Shown: positions 15,615 through 34,085 of the stretch, piece after piece
Layout of the letters: every line of letters begins with the position of its first letter
How positions within the stretch are numbered: position 1 is the stretch's first letter
Assembly: GCA_017541465.1 (NCBI GenBank)
Contig: JAFXYZ010000036.1
Span: 1-34,085 of the forward strand
Origin: a bacterium
GTDB lineage: Bacteria; Cyanobacteriota; Vampirovibrionia; Gastranaerophilales; Gastranaerophilaceae
DNA: 34,085 nt
Direction of reading: 5' to 3'
Made by a program: the position numbers and the translations under genes
The notes under the pieces: generated by a model
Database searches by the model: none
Told to the model about the DNA's origin: nothing
Seen by the model: only the letters and a program-made list of their open reading frames with translations

Positions 15615-15649
15615 AGAATTAAATTTATTGTTGATGAGAGGTATTTATT

Positions 15650-16347
15650 ATGAGAAATATAATTAAAAATTTAATGCCTACCCCCCCTATAAAAAAGGTT
15701 TTACACTTGCAGAAGTTCTGATTACTCTTGTTATAATCGGAGTAATTGCCGCAATAACCATTCCTAGTTTGATAAATAAAACAAGAAATCAGGAATATGT
15801 TTCAAAGTTAAAAAAAGCATATTCAACATTGGCACAAGCAACTAAACTAATCGTTGCAGAAGAGGGAATGCCAAGGGCAGACAAGGGTGGCTGGGCAACC
15901 TCTGGCGAAAATTTATATCTTTTATATAAAAAACATTTACTAAAATCTAGAGATTGTGAAGGTAATGTAGGTTGTTTTGAACAAGGTGGTTATGTTGGTT
16001 TAAACGGAACTGATCAAAGTAACTTTAATGTAGCCGCTAGTGAAAAATATAATTTTAGAAAATTAGTTTTATCTGATGGAGTACAAATCAGATTTGATGG
16101 TATATCAACAGATTGTTCAACTTCCCGTACTGGTTCATCTAACTTTTGTGCTTGGATGCATGTCGATATAAACGGAGCCAAAAAACCAAACACCTATGGT
16201 AGGGATTTATTTGAATTTATTATAAAAGAAAATGGCGGATTGTATCCTGTCGGTTGTGATAACGAAGAAACAGATAAATGCGATAGAGAACATTCAGGTC
16301 GTGCTTGTGCCTGCAAAGTTATAAGAGAAGATGCAATGAATTATTAA
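15650..16347 (+). CDS. Prepilin-like protein 1, poly-C phase-variable, out of frame as sequenced
   Basis: The ATG at 15650 has GAGAGG upstream and a leader MRNIIKNLMPTPP, but a run of 7 C (15681-15687) leaves the rest one base out of frame and translation would stop within about 10 codons. Adding one C restores a 232-residue protein with a 17-residue leader ending KKG, then FTLAEVLITLVIIG with Glu at +5, a helix, and IPSLINKTRNQE. The body has C-x-n-C pairs, the block VDINGAKKPNTYGRDLF and a Cys-rich end (GRACACKVIRED). With 8 C the leader has the same length as that of gene 2, so I read this as the OFF state of a phase-variable gene, not decay. A sequencing error in the homopolymer would look the same. 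Without the leader, the first ATG in the body frame is at 15769 and would lack the secretion signal. Confidence 0.75.
15681..15687 (+). repeat. Poly-C tract, 7 C, in prepilin leader 1
   Basis: A homopolymer of 7 C lies inside the leader codons for Pro-Thr-Pro-Pro. Eight are needed for the reading frame. Confidence 0.9.
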
Positions 16348-29458: not shown

Positions 29459-31039
29459 TTATTTTGCGATTTCAGTATTTCTTGTTTCTCTGACAACGGT
29501 AACCTTAATTTGTCCCGGATAATCAAGCTCTTCTTCAATTCTCTTTGCAATATCTCTCGCAAGTTTTGCGCTGGCTAAATCGTCAAATTTATCAGGCTGA
29601 ACGATAACTCTCATCTCGCGCCCTGCCTGAACAGCAAAGGACTGCTTAATTCCATCGTAGCTGAGCGCAATTTCTTCGAGTTTCTGAAGTCTTTTGATAT
29701 AAATTTCGAGTGTATCACGTCTTGAACCCGGACGGCCTGCCGAAATAGCATCGGCAAGTTTTACAAGCACCGCCTCGATTGAATTTGCGGTAACATCATC
29801 GTGATGAGCCTCTATCGCGTGGATAATATTTTCTTTTTCACCATAACGTCTTGCGAGCTCAACACCCAGCTCAATATGAGTTCCTTCCTGAGTCTGGTCA
29901 ACGGCCTTACCTATATCATGTAATAAACCTGCTCTCTTTGCCACCTTGATGTCTGCACCAAGCTCTGCCGCAAGCATTCCTGCGATATGCCCGACCTCAA
30001 GAGAGTGTTTAAGAACATTTTGACCATAACTGGTTCTGTAATATAATCTTCCTAAGTATTTAATTAATTCCTTATGAATATTCATTATGCCCATTGAAAT
30101 AACGGCATTTTCACCCTCTGCCTTAATTTTGGCATCAACCTCTTCAGTTGCCTTTTCAACCATTTCCTCAATTCTGACGGGGTGGATACGACCATCCGCA
30201 ATAAGTTTTTCGAGTGCAATTTTTGCAATTTCTCTTCTGACAGGATCAAAAGAGGATAATACAACGGCTTCAGGGGTATCATCAATGATTAAATCAACAC
30301 CCGTCAGAGTTTCAAGTGTTCTGATGTTTCTTCCCTCACGGCCGATGATTCTGCCCTTCATTTCGTCAGATGCAAGCTGAACAACGGACACCGTTGATTC
30401 AACCACCTGGTCGATAAGGCAGCGCTGCATAGTCGTTGTGAGAATTTCTTTTGCTCTTTCGTTTGAAACCTCTTTAATATGATTTTCGTTTTCTCTAATC
30501 ATATTGGCAGCCTCTTGCTGCAAATCCTGTTTCAGTTGGTCAAGCAAAATTCTTTTGGCATCCTCAGATGATAATCCGCTGATTCTCTCTAGTTCCTGAA
30601 CCTGATGAGAAATAACTTCATCGAGATAGTCCTCTTTTTCGACTAACTCTTCATTTTTCTTGGTAAATTCAGCCTCTCGGTCAACAGCCTGCTGAATTTT
30701 AGCCTCAAGTTCTTCTTCACGTTTAATTAATTTGTTTTCCTGCCTGTTAAGTTCCTGACGGCGCTCTTTTTGCTCTTCCTGAAACTTTTCGATGTCTCTT
30801 TGTACAGACTCTTTGGCATCAATCATAGCCTCTTTTTTGATTCTGTCGATTTTATCTTCCTGGTCTTTATATTTGAGTTCAAGAAGATGAAGGGATGACT
30901 GATAAGATTTTCTTTGCAGCAAAAATGCGAACACTGCAATAAAAGCGAGTGCTTCAGTAACATGCGGCAATATCTGATTAATACTAATAATTGTCCTATA
31001 CCTCGTTCTTAAATACGTATAACATAGGCAAATATGCAC
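29459..31039 (-). CDS. rny: Ribonuclease Y
   Basis: The protein has a membrane helix ([13 protein letters not shown]), a long coiled coil (about 50-200), a KH domain with [15 protein letters not shown], and an HD domain with [12 protein letters not shown] and [11 protein letters not shown]. RNase Y is a membrane-anchored endonuclease that starts mRNA decay. The start is uncertain. The longest frame begins at a GTG (31039) with no Shine-Dalgarno sequence and adds 16 unlikely residues ([16 protein letters not shown]). An ATT at 30991 has GAGGT 8 bases upstream and gives 510 residues, the usual family length; no ATG, GTG or TTG is suitably placed. It is the first gene of the rny-ymdB-PHP-pseudopilin-protease operon. 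Confidence 0.94.
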
Positions 31040-31131
31040 TATCGCATATTCGAAGGTCTATTAACAAATGTATAATTTAATGTTTATTTCATATAGTTAA
31101 AATTGTTTTATTGTATCTACACCTTAAAAAT

Positions 31132-31161
31132 ATTCTATCATATATCGGGCAATTTTAACAA
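31132..31161 (-). promoter_or_regulatory. Possible promoter of the rny operon
   Basis: On the minus strand TTGTTA (31161-31156), an 18-base spacer and TAGAAT (31137-31132) lie about 95 bases before the rny start region. The leader between them and the gene is AT-rich and shows no clear structure. Confidence 0.45.
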
Positions 31162-31204
31162 TAGATTTTTAATTTTTATATATAATATTTTTTTGAGAAT
31201 AATA

Positions 31205-31233
31205 TTGACTAAGAAGTTTTTTAATTTTATACT
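31205..31233 (+). promoter_or_regulatory. Promoter of tRNA-Leu
   Basis: TTGACT (31205-31210), a 17-base spacer and TATACT (31228-31233) form a strong sigma-70-type promoter; the tRNA begins 12 bases after the -10 box. Confidence 0.8.
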
Positions 31234-31245
31234 TGAGAAAGAAAT

Positions 31246-31331
31246 GCCTTGGTGGCGGAATCGGTAGACGCGTCGGACTTAAAATCCGATCGGGGTCAAA
31301 CTCGGTGCCGGTTCAAGTCCGGCCCAGGGCA
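31246..31331 (+). tRNA. tRNA-Leu (UAA)
   Basis: The 7-bp acceptor stem GCCTTGG/CCAGGGC, a GCGGAATCGGTAGACGC D arm, anticodon stem TCGGA/TCCGA with loop CTTAAAA (anticodon TAA), a long class II variable arm and the T arm GCCGGTTCAAGTCCGGC are all visible. The discriminator is A and the CCA end is not encoded. Confidence 0.96.
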
Positions 31332-31336
31332 GATTT

Positions 31337-31364
31337 AAAACAGTCGGCAACGGCTGTTTTTTTT
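31337..31364. terminator. Bidirectional terminator between tRNA-Leu and the radical SAM gene
   Basis: Stem ACAGTCG/CGGCTGT (31340-31346 with 31351-31357, one G-U) with a GCAA tetraloop is followed by 8 T on the plus strand; A's on the other side give a T run on the minus strand too. It reaches the stop codon of the convergent gene. Confidence 0.8.
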
Positions 31365-32394
31365 ATTGAAAATAATACTTATAATTTTTGTCTGTATTTT
31401 CGCTCTTATATTTTTCAAAGAGTTCTCTGTCTAAACCATTTTGATGAGGGAAAGTTCTTGCCATTGAAACATATTTGGCAGAATCATACCATTCAAATTC
31501 CAAGTTATTACTTTGCGCATAATTTTCAAAATAATCCATCAGCATATAAACGTGAGGCGAAATCTCTTTTAAGTTGTTGTTCGCATAAGAATATTCAACA
31601 TCAACAATAATACTTCTTATATCAAGTTCTTTTATCTTCCTGAGGTATGCATCAACCTCATCAAGCGTATCATTTACCCCGGGGATTATTATGTATTTTA
31701 CTTTTACCATTTTCTGATAAATTTCGGGCAGATTTTTCCTATAGTGGGCAATATTTCCCCAAACCGTATCTGATTTATCCACACGTTTAATTTTCTCATA
31801 AACTTCCTTTGTCGCAGAGTCGGGGGAAATAATAATACTGACTCTTCCCTTTTTTAGTCCTTCTCTGACCGCACGTGAAAATAAAATTCCCGAAGAATGA
31901 ATACGAATAGCGGTTTTTGTCGGAATAAACAGATTAAGAAGTTGTTCAAACTCCTTCATAATGGTCGGCTCACCACCCTGAAAAGTGATTTCACCGTAAT
32001 CACGGAACTTCCCCGATTTAATTAAATCTTTAATGGCAGGCAAAATATTATTTTTCGTTCTCGGTCTGTTTAAATTAACCCCGCAATAAATACATCTTGA
32101 ATTGCACTCACTCCAGTGGTTGAAATTAATATAGGCAATATAATCGTCATCGTCCCAGTCCTGCTCATAAAGACTATAACAACCCTCGCACTGCGCAAGA
32201 TCTTTTATCTGCTGAGCCTTCCTCTGTTCTCTTTTAACCCTGAAAAGTTCATCCCAGTTAATCTTGTTGTTGCCGTAAAAATTGAGAACAGGCAAAAGCC
32301 CTTTGTTAAACTCCCTTGATAGACAACAAGCCTGAACAGAATCAATGTCAATCGAAATTCCATGCTCAATTAAATGACAACTCTTGTATTTCAT
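31363..32394 (-). CDS. Radical SAM protein of unknown function with N-terminal cysteine cluster
   Basis: The 343-residue protein has the radical SAM motif CNSRCIYC (C97, C101, C104), then FQGGEPTIMKEFEQLL, IRIHSSG and IIPGVNDTLDE, the order of a partial TIM barrel. Unusually, extra cysteines lie before the motif: C6, C23-C24 and QCEGC (C69, C72), like a SPASM/Twitch-type auxiliary cluster set at the N-terminus instead of the C-terminus. No substrate peptide or partner gene is next to it. AGGAGAT stands before the ATG and a TTGTTT/TAATAT promoter lies upstream. Possible roles include peptide or envelope sugar modification; nothing here decides. Confidence 0.82.
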   Translation of the reverse strand: MKYKSCHLIEHGISIDIDSVQACCLSREFNKGLLPVLNFYGNNKINWDELFRVKREQRKAQQIKDLAQCEGCYSLYEQDWDDDDYIAYINFNHWSECNSRCIYCGVNLNRPRTKNNILPAIKDLIKSGKFRDYGEITFQGGEPTIMKEFEQLLNLFIPTKTAIRIHSSGILFSRAVREGLKKGRVSIIISPDSATKEVYEKIKRVDKSDTVWGNIAHYRKNLPEIYQKMVKVKYIIIPGVNDTLDEVDAYLRKIKELDIRSIIVDVEYSYANNNLKEISPHVYMLMDYFENYAQSNNLEFEWYDSAKYVSMARTFPHQNGLDRELFEKYKSENTDKNYKYYFQ

Positions 32395-32412
32395 AATATC
32401 TCCTGAACTCGA

Positions 32413-32441
32413 ATATTATCATAAAAAACAGAGATAAACAA
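32413..32441 (-). promoter_or_regulatory. Promoter of the radical SAM gene
   Basis: On the minus strand TTGTTT (32441-32436), a 17-base spacer and TAATAT (32418-32413) stand about 20 bases before the ATG. Confidence 0.6.
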
Positions 32442-32490
32442 TAATTAAATGTAAGTTAGGCATTACTGAAATACGAAAAAACGTTATAAA

Positions 32491-32519
32491 TTTACAAGAC
32501 GGGGAATATTTGATAATAT
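32491..32519 (+). promoter_or_regulatory. Promoter of prepilin gene 3, shared with gene 1
   Basis: TTTACA (32491-32496), a 17-base spacer and TAATAT (32514-32519) repeat the promoter of gene 1, and the phrase GGGAATATTTGATAATATAG is the same in both. Confidence 0.7.
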
Positions 32520-32555
32520 AGTTATTAATTAGAGAATTAAGAGAGGTTTTTAAGT

Positions 32556-32595
32556 ATGTTTAATTTGTAAAACAAATTCGTTTCTACCCCCCCCC
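32556..32595 (+). pseudogene. Remnant of the original leader of prepilin gene 3, with poly-C tract
   Basis: An ATG (32556) preceded by GAGAGG opens MFNL and then hits TAA at codon 5. Read through, the frame gives the NKFV-S-T-P-P-P pattern with a run of 9 C (32587-32595) at the same place as in genes 1 and 2. The leader is broken by the stop and by the hairpins inserted right after the C tract. Confidence 0.6.
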
Positions 32596-32780
32596 ACTTC
32601 TTTTGGAAAAGAAGTAGGCAAGAAAACTTTCGTAGTTTTTAAAGTTCTATCAATAATTTACTAAATCATTGTTTTGGTAAAGGTATTTGTAGGTCGTGTT
32701 GTCAAACACGACAAATGATTTATATTTCTAGCGAATACAACCCTCTCCCTAGCCCTCTCCCCAGGAGAGGGAACGTGTTG
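32596..32780 (+). repeat. Hairpin insert between old leader and body of prepilin gene 3
   Basis: Three palindromes follow one another: ACTTCTTTT-GG-AAAAGAAGT (32596-32615), the GTAGG-family copy GTCGTGTT-GTCA-AACACGAC (32693-32712) and a REP-like CCCTCTCC-CCA-GGAGAGGG (32753-32771) with a spare left arm at 32741-32748. The 9 C tract stands at one side and the prepilin segment at the other, so the block looks inserted. Besides these hairpins I see no gene in 32395-32714. Confidence 0.6.
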
Positions 32781-33467
32781 GGCTTCACCCTCGCCGAAGT
32801 CTTAATAACTCTCGTCATTATTGGCGTTATTGCAGCTATTACAGTACCTACATTAATAATAAAACATCAAAAGGAACAAACCGTAACAAGATTAAAAAAA
32901 GCGTATTCTGATTTGTCAAATGTTATCAAATATTCAGAAGTTTCAAATGGATATATTTCAACTTGGGATTTTACATTAACAACAGAAAACTTTATCAATA
33001 AGTATCTTTCATCTTATATTGTCCTTTCAAAATTATCTAACGAAAGATATAGGCAAGAAGTAGTATATAGTAATATTAAAGGTGAAAAATTTGGAAGTAG
33101 TGGTTTTTCATTATTTAATGAAACAAATCATAATCGTATATGGAAATTAAATTCAGGTAGCACATTATTATTCGATTATACTTCCATGGATATTGAAAAT
33201 GGCTATTTGGTTGCTATTGATATTAATGGGAATCAAAAACCAAATAAATTAGGAAAAGATCTTTTTGTTTTCGGAATACATAAATATAAAGGTTTACAGC
33301 CATATCGATGGAATTTAAATAATGGTACTCCCGCAGATGTTACAAGAAATTCTCTTTTGACAAGAACAGCGGAACCATGTTGTAATAAAAATTGTTTTGT
33401 TGGATATGGTTGCAGTGCATTAATAATGATAGACGGCTGGCAGATTAAAGACGATTATCCGTGGTAA
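32775..33467 (+). CDS. Prepilin-like protein 3, with rebuilt start
   Basis: The body begins GFTLAEVLITLVIIGV with Glu at +5, followed by KHQKEQTVTRLKKAYSDLSN, an aromatic-rich variable part, IDINGNQKPNKLGKDLF and a C-terminal CNKNCFVGYGCSALIMIDG (the last about 45 residues). I chose the GTG at 32775, with AGGAG 7 bases upstream, giving a leader of only MLG and 230 residues. An ATG at 32715 gives 250 residues and the leader MIYISSEYNPLPSPLPRRGNVLG, but it has no ribosome binding site and lies 2 bases after a hairpin. The AGGAG itself sits in the right arm of the REP-like hairpin, so it may be hidden. Expression is uncertain; the body is intact. Confidence 0.78.
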   Translation: MLGFTLAEVLITLVIIGVIAAITVPTLIIKHQKEQTVTRLKKAYSDLSNVIKYSEVSNGYISTWDFTLTTENFINKYLSSYIVLSKLSNERYRQEVVYSNIKGEKFGSSGFSLFNETNHNRIWKLNSGSTLLFDYTSMDIENGYLVAIDINGNQKPNKLGKDLFVFGIHKYKGLQPYRWNLNNGTPADVTRNSLLTRTAEPCCNKNCFVGYGCSALIMIDGWQIKDDYPW

Positions 33468-33473
33468 CTAAAA

Positions 33474-33500
33474 ATCGGTAGGGTGCAATTTTTTGCAACT
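33474..33500 (+). repeat. Degenerate GTAGG-family palindrome, copy 6
   Basis: GGTAGGGTGCAATTTTTTGCAAC keeps the GTAGG start and a 6-7-bp imperfect stem (GGTGCAA/TTGCAAC, one mismatch). It lies shortly after the stop of prepilin gene 3. Confidence 0.4.
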
Positions 33501-33515
33501 TAATATAAAAACAAC

Positions 33516-33545
33516 AAAAACCTCTGAGTTAATCAGAGGTTTTTG
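33516..33545. terminator. Bidirectional terminator of the rRNA operon
   Basis: A perfect 12-bp stem AAAAACCTCTGA/TCAGAGGTTTTT (33516-33527 with 33533-33544) with a 5-base loop, A-rich on one side and T-rich on the other, ends the 23S-5S transcript on the minus strand and can also stop the prepilin transcript. Confidence 0.85.
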
Positions 33546-33557
33546 TTTAAAAAAGGT

Positions 33558-33672
33558 ACCGGCAGCTAGTTATCTTTCCGTGCGGTCTCCCGCAGAGTAT
33601 TTTCACCGCAATCAGTCTTTACGATCGTGTTCGGGATGGGAACGAGTGGTATCCTGACGCTTGGCCACCGGA
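33558..33672 (-). rRNA. rrf: 5S ribosomal RNA
   Basis: On the minus strand the sequence begins CCGGTGGCCAAGCG and contains the conserved CCCATCCCGAACACGA and the closing helix with AGCTGCCGG. The ends are approximate to a few bases. It follows 23S rRNA by about 120 bases. Confidence 0.95.
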
Positions 33673-33789
33673 AAAGTTTTGTCGAACAGTATCAATAAAA
33701 TCGACTGTTCAATGAACTTTTGAGGTTCATACGCTGAAAGCTGCATAGAATTATAAAATATATCATAAATCAAACTAAAAAGTTTAGGA

Positions 33790-34085
33790 AAAGCGTTCGT
33801 CCGATTAGTATCGCTCGGCTGAAAATATTGCTACTCTTACACCTGCGACCTATCAACCATATAATCTGTATGGGGACTTATTATCTTGCGATAGAGAGAA
33901 CTCATCTTACGGTGGGCTTCGTACTTATATGCTTTCAGCACTTATCCGCTCCGAACACAGCTACCGGGCGTTTACCGCGGGCGCGATAACCCGTACACTG
34001 GAGGTTCGTTCTTCCCGGTCCTCTCGTACTAAGGAAGACTCCGTTCAATTCTCTTGCGCGTATACCGGATATGGACCGAACTGTC
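33790..34085 (-). rRNA. rrl: 23S ribosomal RNA, 3' part (gene continues beyond the window)
   Basis: The minus strand contains the sarcin-ricin segment AGTACGAGAGGACCGGGAAG and a 3' end near ATACTAATCGGACGAACGC. Only the last 300 bases or so are in the window; the exact 3' end is uncertain by about 10 bases. Confidence 0.95.

Follow-up and report, generated by a model that had tools for sequence, protein, structure and literature searches.

Prepilin gene 3 raises the question of whether a pilin gene can still be expressed once its leader holds stop codons, and of what broke the switch that this leader should carry. The window, meaning the whole stretch of 34,085 nt that was analysed, is one contig of a 2.117 Mb genome, which is 99.7% complete and represented by one assembly. 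The prepilin runs from the -1 glycine to the stop codon (32781..33467), with the mature pilin starting at Phe 32784. It matches N_methyl (PF07963), DUF6613, and TIGR02532 above cut-off and shows the hallmark of type IV prepilins, G/A-FTLxE followed by about 20 hydrophobic residues (GFTLAEVLITLVIIGVIAAITVP). The mature part is undamaged and retains the residues on which its closest sisters all agree. The leader is presumably translated and then removed: the G of GFTLAE would be its last residue, taken off together with the rest by a prepilin peptidase, and a gene of the prepilin peptidase family is present in the genome.

All features of gene 3 lie on the forward strand, and a sequence-only reading of the window had already placed most of them correctly: the promoter, the Shine-Dalgarno sequence (SD), the ATG, the C9 tract, the stop at codon 5, the 185-nt block of three palindromes, and an AGGAG with a GTG 7 nt behind it. 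The promoter-like TTTACA-17-TAATAT (32491..32519), in which a TG precedes the second hexamer, was found in a consensus scan and is common to the sister genes. It is followed by the SD AGAGAGG (32540-32546), with an anti-SD duplex of -5.3 kcal/mol, and by the original start ATG (32556-32558), an arrangement (32540..32558) that has the SD-ATG layout of 65 genes. From this ATG, gene 3 reads MFNL and then TAA (32568..32570), which the 5' cassette alignment places at the fifth codon of the original leader, where the sisters have AAA (Lys). Next comes the C9 tract (32587..32595), placed by tract register analysis in the ON register (STPPH frame). Over this 5' region, gene 3 shares 86-89% identity with the intact sisters L056, L057, L059, L086, L091, and L101.

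Between the tract and GFTLAE stands the block (32596-32780), whose palindromes lie at 32597-32614, 32689-32712, and 32753-32771. The first of them (CTTCTTTTGGAAAAGAAG) is part of module A, an 81-nt unit (32597..32677) recognized from its genome copies and their alignment, and normally translated as FFWKRSRQENFRSFSSSI.... Within module A lies a second in-frame TAA, at codon 29 (32640..32642), which the sequence-only reading overlooked and which is TCA in the other copies of a 15-copy alignment. The middle palindrome (GTAGGTCGTGTTGTCAAACACGAC) is GTAG-headed and REP-like, has 18 copies in the genome, and forms a hairpin of -10.3 kcal/mol. The third, CCCTCTCC-CCA-GGAGAGGG, is preceded by a further CCCTCTCC arm at 32741-32748; arm and palindrome together (32741..32771) are translated as NPLPSPLPRRG. 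This palindrome has 40 exact copies in the genome, folds into a stable hairpin of -13.5 kcal/mol, and holds the AGGAG (32763-32767) that sits 7 nt 5' of GTG 32775.

Gene 3 belongs to a large family. Searching the genome with it gave 89 matching places, and the stretches around these hold 81 GFTLAE-type starts, corresponding to about 80 prepilin genes. A C tract is found at 66 of the 81 starts (33 with C9, 27 with C8, three with C7, two with an interrupted C5, and one with C10), and the tract register was judged for the 65 that have enough upstream sequence. These share the promoter, SD, ATG, and C-tract start, with a purine-rich SD before the ATG in all 65. In 64 of the 65 genes, exactly one tract register allows a stop-free reading from the ATG behind the SD to GFTLAE; tract length sets the reading frame in these 64 sisters and does not in gene 3 (TAA 32568, TAA 32640), the only one with stops in its start segment. 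As assembled, 26 of the 64 open genes are ON and 38 are OFF (24 with one C extra, 14 with one C short), and the ON frame of most tract genes reads TPP and then Tyr or His. The shared switch would consist of the SD-ATG, about ten leader codons, a C tract that sets the frame, an optional in-frame repeat filler, and GFTLAE. Slippage in the tract would presumably switch these genes, a reading based on the tract lengths of one assembly.

Four members depart from this layout in another way. The tract of L028, L079, L096, and L100 is either broken up (CCCCTCCCC, CCCCCTCCC) or missing, and with their open leaders they are apparently locked ON and thus the reverse of gene 3. Prepilin gene 1 (L080, window 15640-15700) has a C7 tract, one C below the ON register, and its annotated TTG start at 15769 falls within the conserved helix region.

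Repeat blocks like that of gene 3 are common in the family: 81-195 nt separate tract and GFTLAE in 42 of the 65 tract genes, and this filler is made up of module A, CCCTCTCC palindromes, GTAGGTTGGGC and GTAGGTCGTGTT palindromes, and others. With gene 3 as the sole exception, the inserts (41 of 42) are free of stops in the GFTLAE frame and interrupted in the other two frames, while base composition would lead to 3.2 stop-free ones. Because they are open in exactly this frame, the inserts are best described as translated filler behind a switch that is still usable. The repeats are also strongly concentrated in this place. The module GAAAAGAAGTAGGCAAGAAAACTTT, searched with up to 3 mismatches, has 20 genome copies, and prepilin leaders hold 18 of these (0.18 expected). 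Since module A is read in one frame in these leaders, there is little reason to see an RNA regulator in it. Similarly, 15 of the 40 copies of CCCTCTCC..GGAGAGGG lie within 230 nt 5' of GFTLAE, against 0.35 expected, including two (L012, L075) that are upstream of the start and thus outside the leader. The 15 aligned copies of module A show 93 single changes; counted by codon, 54 are replacement and 18 silent, and the peptide is loosely kept. Chance would give 4.8 nonsense changes among them, and the TAA of gene 3 is the single one. The inserts look tolerated as translated leader, with staying open as their main constraint, and since the leader is cut off, repeats could accumulate there as long as they are open and in register. 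Palindromes of the CCCTCTCC or GTAGGTCGTGTT type also occur up to 100 nt past the stop codons of L006, L011, L013, L016, L089, L099, L065, and L102, and repeats can therefore flank the mature part at both ends.

Against this background, the cause of the damage in gene 3 can be reconsidered. The loss of the switchable leader, as proposed in the sequence-only reading, is supported by the fact that no tract length joins ATG 32556 to GFTLAE. The cause named there, namely the inserted block, does not hold, given that 41 sisters carry such blocks in frame behind the C tract. That reading had also overlooked that C9 places ATG 32556, the block, and GFTLAE of gene 3 in a single reading frame. With the tract ON and the frame preserved across the block, the switch was disabled by point mutation and not by insertion, through the substitutions AAA to TAA at codon 5 (compared with the sisters) and TCA to TAA at codon 29 (compared with the module A copies). 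These two nonsense substitutions, 5' of the tract and in module A, block every register of gene 3. A start in another frame that reaches GFTLAE via the tract was considered as well and rejected: TAA 32640 closes that frame, and a productive start must be downstream of it. Gene 3 is a member of the tract family in the ON register that two nonsense changes have stopped, and it is probably locked off and mostly silent, with at most weak internal initiation to be expected.

What counts against a locked-off gene is the position of the stops, both of them upstream of ATG 32715 with the mature part stop-free (P = 0.018 if random), which hints at a mature pilin that may still be expressed or maintained. 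Other family members do have stops in their mature parts (C55:14189, C35:3584, and C30:1140), and decay is therefore normal in this family. In one of them, L057 (C55:14189), the leader is open and in the ON register, yet a TAG lies near mature codon 32, so that its decay is opposite to that of gene 3.

The same position of the stops, 5' of ATG 32715 and with an intact mature part behind it, also speaks for the main rival to the locked-off gene, in which gene 3 is translated constitutively and free of any switch from this ATG (32715..32717), with a repeat-derived leader of 23 residues (MIYISSEYNPLPSPLPRRGNVLG). It is the first standard in-frame start past both stops, and its codon is fairly accessible (unpaired 0.4-0.75). 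The hydrophilic leaders of class III signal peptides end in Gly and measure 6-26 residues (PMC4471445), and both the length of this one and its RR fit that range and the positive-inside pattern, although open sister leaders often have 40-80 residues. However, ATG 32715 has no SD (duplex energy +1.7), in contrast to the purine-rich SD of all 65 tract genes, and it lies directly 3' of a stable hairpin. Constitutive translation from this codon is considered rather unlikely.

A second internal start had been put forward in the sequence-only reading, according to which the block gave gene 3 a new start at GTG 32775, with an AGGAG supplied by the palindrome and the leader MLG, either constitutive or controlled by structure. 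The AGGAG is indeed a strong anti-SD match (-7.4 kcal/mol) at a good spacing, and a promoter-like TTGTCA-16-TATATT at 32699-32726 could give a short transcript, being one of 4 promoter-like sites where 1.4 are expected. The GTG and the TTG behind it (32775..32780) are possible weak starts, with leaders MLG or MG, and the same codons are found in sisters that read through them from the upstream ATG. AGGAG and GTG both recur in L052 and L057, whereas L050, L071, and L028 have the GTG behind an altered AGGAG, and all five leaders are open from an ATG further upstream. As sisters with open leaders share it, the AGGAG/GTG pair is a by-product of the palindrome and not something that gene 3 gained. 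Elsewhere, the palindrome is followed by ATG, GAG, or AAA at the position of the GTG. Furthermore, the leader MLG would have 3 residues and no charge, below the known range, which argues against MLG as a working leader.

The folding of the RNA also weighs against this start. The two left partners proposed for the AGGAG arm are both real: in the folding check, the alternative pairings with 32741-32748 and 32753-32760 were recovered at about 0.2-0.56 and 0.44-0.8 in local windows, the nearer one reaching 0.98 in the long window. The access depending on the fold that had been proposed with them was not recovered, as GGAG is fully paired with either partner, and in each of the five windows folded its pairing probability is at least 0.99. 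Because both foldings hide GGAG (unpaired probability of 0.01 or less), they do not amount to a switch of the riboswitch or thermometer kind, and Rfam returned no riboregulator in 31000-34085; its only matches were tRNA and rRNA. Initiation at GTG 32775 is thus quite improbable, and the locked-off gene is still the preferred explanation.

By type, the middle palindrome of the block is a GTAG REP, with the head, the stem-loop, and 18 copies. The genome also encodes two Y1 (RAYT-like) transposases, L237 and L238, each located between GTAG/GTAAG-headed palindromes. Since palindromes of this type border both Y1 genes, the middle palindrome fits the GTAG REP/RAYT class, even though the exact sequence of 32689-32712 is absent from their flanks. 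In the block of gene 3, no GTAG precedes either the CCCTCTCC palindrome or the module A palindrome.

Leaders and mature parts do not appear to share one history. The similarity of two 5' cassettes hardly predicts that of their mature parts (Spearman 0.07): L065 and L014 are 96% identical in the leader and 49% in the remainder, and L052 and L057 are 91% and 48% identical. Mapped on the mature tree, neither module A (13 changes vs 14.1 when shuffled) nor the 5' type (9 vs 9.4) shows any signal. The simplest reading of this decoupling would be cassette exchange or gene conversion. Gene 3 might then be a silent reservoir, in which the exchange of 5' cassettes or gene conversion among prepilin loci keeps the mature part intact and a working leader can be regained by recombination. 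Nevertheless, the mature tree is weakly resolved, with stars on 6 of its 58 inner branches, decoupling could partly be mimicked if the mature parts diverge fast, and no exchange event was seen. A reservoir is considered rather unlikely. It is compatible with a locked-off gene and does not exclude it.

Comparison with other genomes was of limited help, because the genus contains this genome only, and the ancestral state of gene 3 was judged from paralogues. The ortholog comparison found no orthologue of gene 3 in any of 39 related genomes, where the best full-length matches are 43-46% identical. Its divergent neighbor, a radical-SAM gene, does have orthologues, 64-65% identical, in rabbit-gut Gastranaerophilales MAGs (labelled 'Lapin', presumably rabbit). 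None of these orthologues adjoins a prepilin, and the prepilins of those MAGs reach at most 39% whole-length identity to gene 3. The radical-SAM gene (window 31363-32394) belongs to an expanded family itself, with 10 matching places here and 18 in the relative G017.

The arrangement of the prepilins extends beyond this genome. Many other genera of the family have 50-85 prepilin matches each, and several show a poly-G tract (8-15) at the equivalent position, with open leader inserts of up to 338 nt. In the relative G010, five prepilins (L170-L174) keep a tract ORF with G11-12 that runs into stops, and a GGAGG-ATG with the leader MKKRN follows about 160 nt past it; the conserved spacer holds CTAACAGTTAG and CCGTGCC..CACGG palindromes. 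The switch of these five genes may act from the upstream ORF. Their GGAGG-ATG is an example of a real new start, unlike the GTG of gene 3.

Beyond gene 3, the larger discovery is a genome-wide set of tract-switched prepilins with palindrome-filled leaders, which apparently are also shuffled; no description of it was found in the open-access literature, and a full-text search of that literature likewise gave none of pilin phase variation in Gastranaerophilales. A tentative generalization is that the removable leaders of Gastranaerophilales prepilins are landing pads and exchange zones, in which REP-type palindromes lie in the translated segment that follows a homopolymer switch, while dozens of pilins exchange whole switch cassettes with one another, gene 3 being locked off and open to revival by exchange. 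Most of what is known of phase-variable pili comes from a few pathogens, and here an uncultured gut lineage appears to have dozens of independently switchable pilins. This number would allow a great many surface combinations, and the switch sits in the part of the protein that is removed. A harmless route for repeats into coding genes is suggested by the translated palindromes, and gene 3, with a switch broken by point mutation, offers a natural test case.

Tract switching, in-frame palindromes, and GTAG REPs with RAYTs are already known individually. Frame-shifting homopolymer tracts cause phase variation of contingency genes in Neisseria, Campylobacter, and Helicobacter. The prepilins resemble these in having a run of 7-15 C or G shortly behind the start codon, one of three registers that is ON, and a mixture of ON and OFF genes per genome. 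They differ in their number, about 65 in this one genome, in a tract that lies in a cut-off leader, and in a slippage that is presumed from one assembly, and gene 3 additionally in being locked off by stops 5' and 3' of the tract. The pilE/pilS system of Neisseria combines many pilin sequences, a conserved N-terminus, and exchange between loci. Many pilins, a conserved N-terminus, and possible exchange are found here too; in contrast, most copies have their own promoter, start, and tract, and no single expression locus was seen. Rickettsia palindromic elements (RPE) are palindromic repeats that stand in frame within protein genes and are translated (PMC10969869). The likeness lies in the palindromes being in frame and open, as in 41 of 42 leader inserts, with gene 3 broken at codon 29, and implies no sequence kinship with the RPE families; the sequences are others, of several kinds, and concentrated in the removable prepilin leader and not spread across unrelated genes. 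Finally, GTAG-headed REP repeats with RAYT transposases form a described class (PMC3733652), to which the middle palindrome of gene 3 corresponds in its GTAG head and stem-loop and the two Y1 genes in the GTAG/GTAAG palindromes bordering them, while the copies inside translated leaders, and the module A and CCCTCTCC palindromes without a GTAG head, set this system apart.
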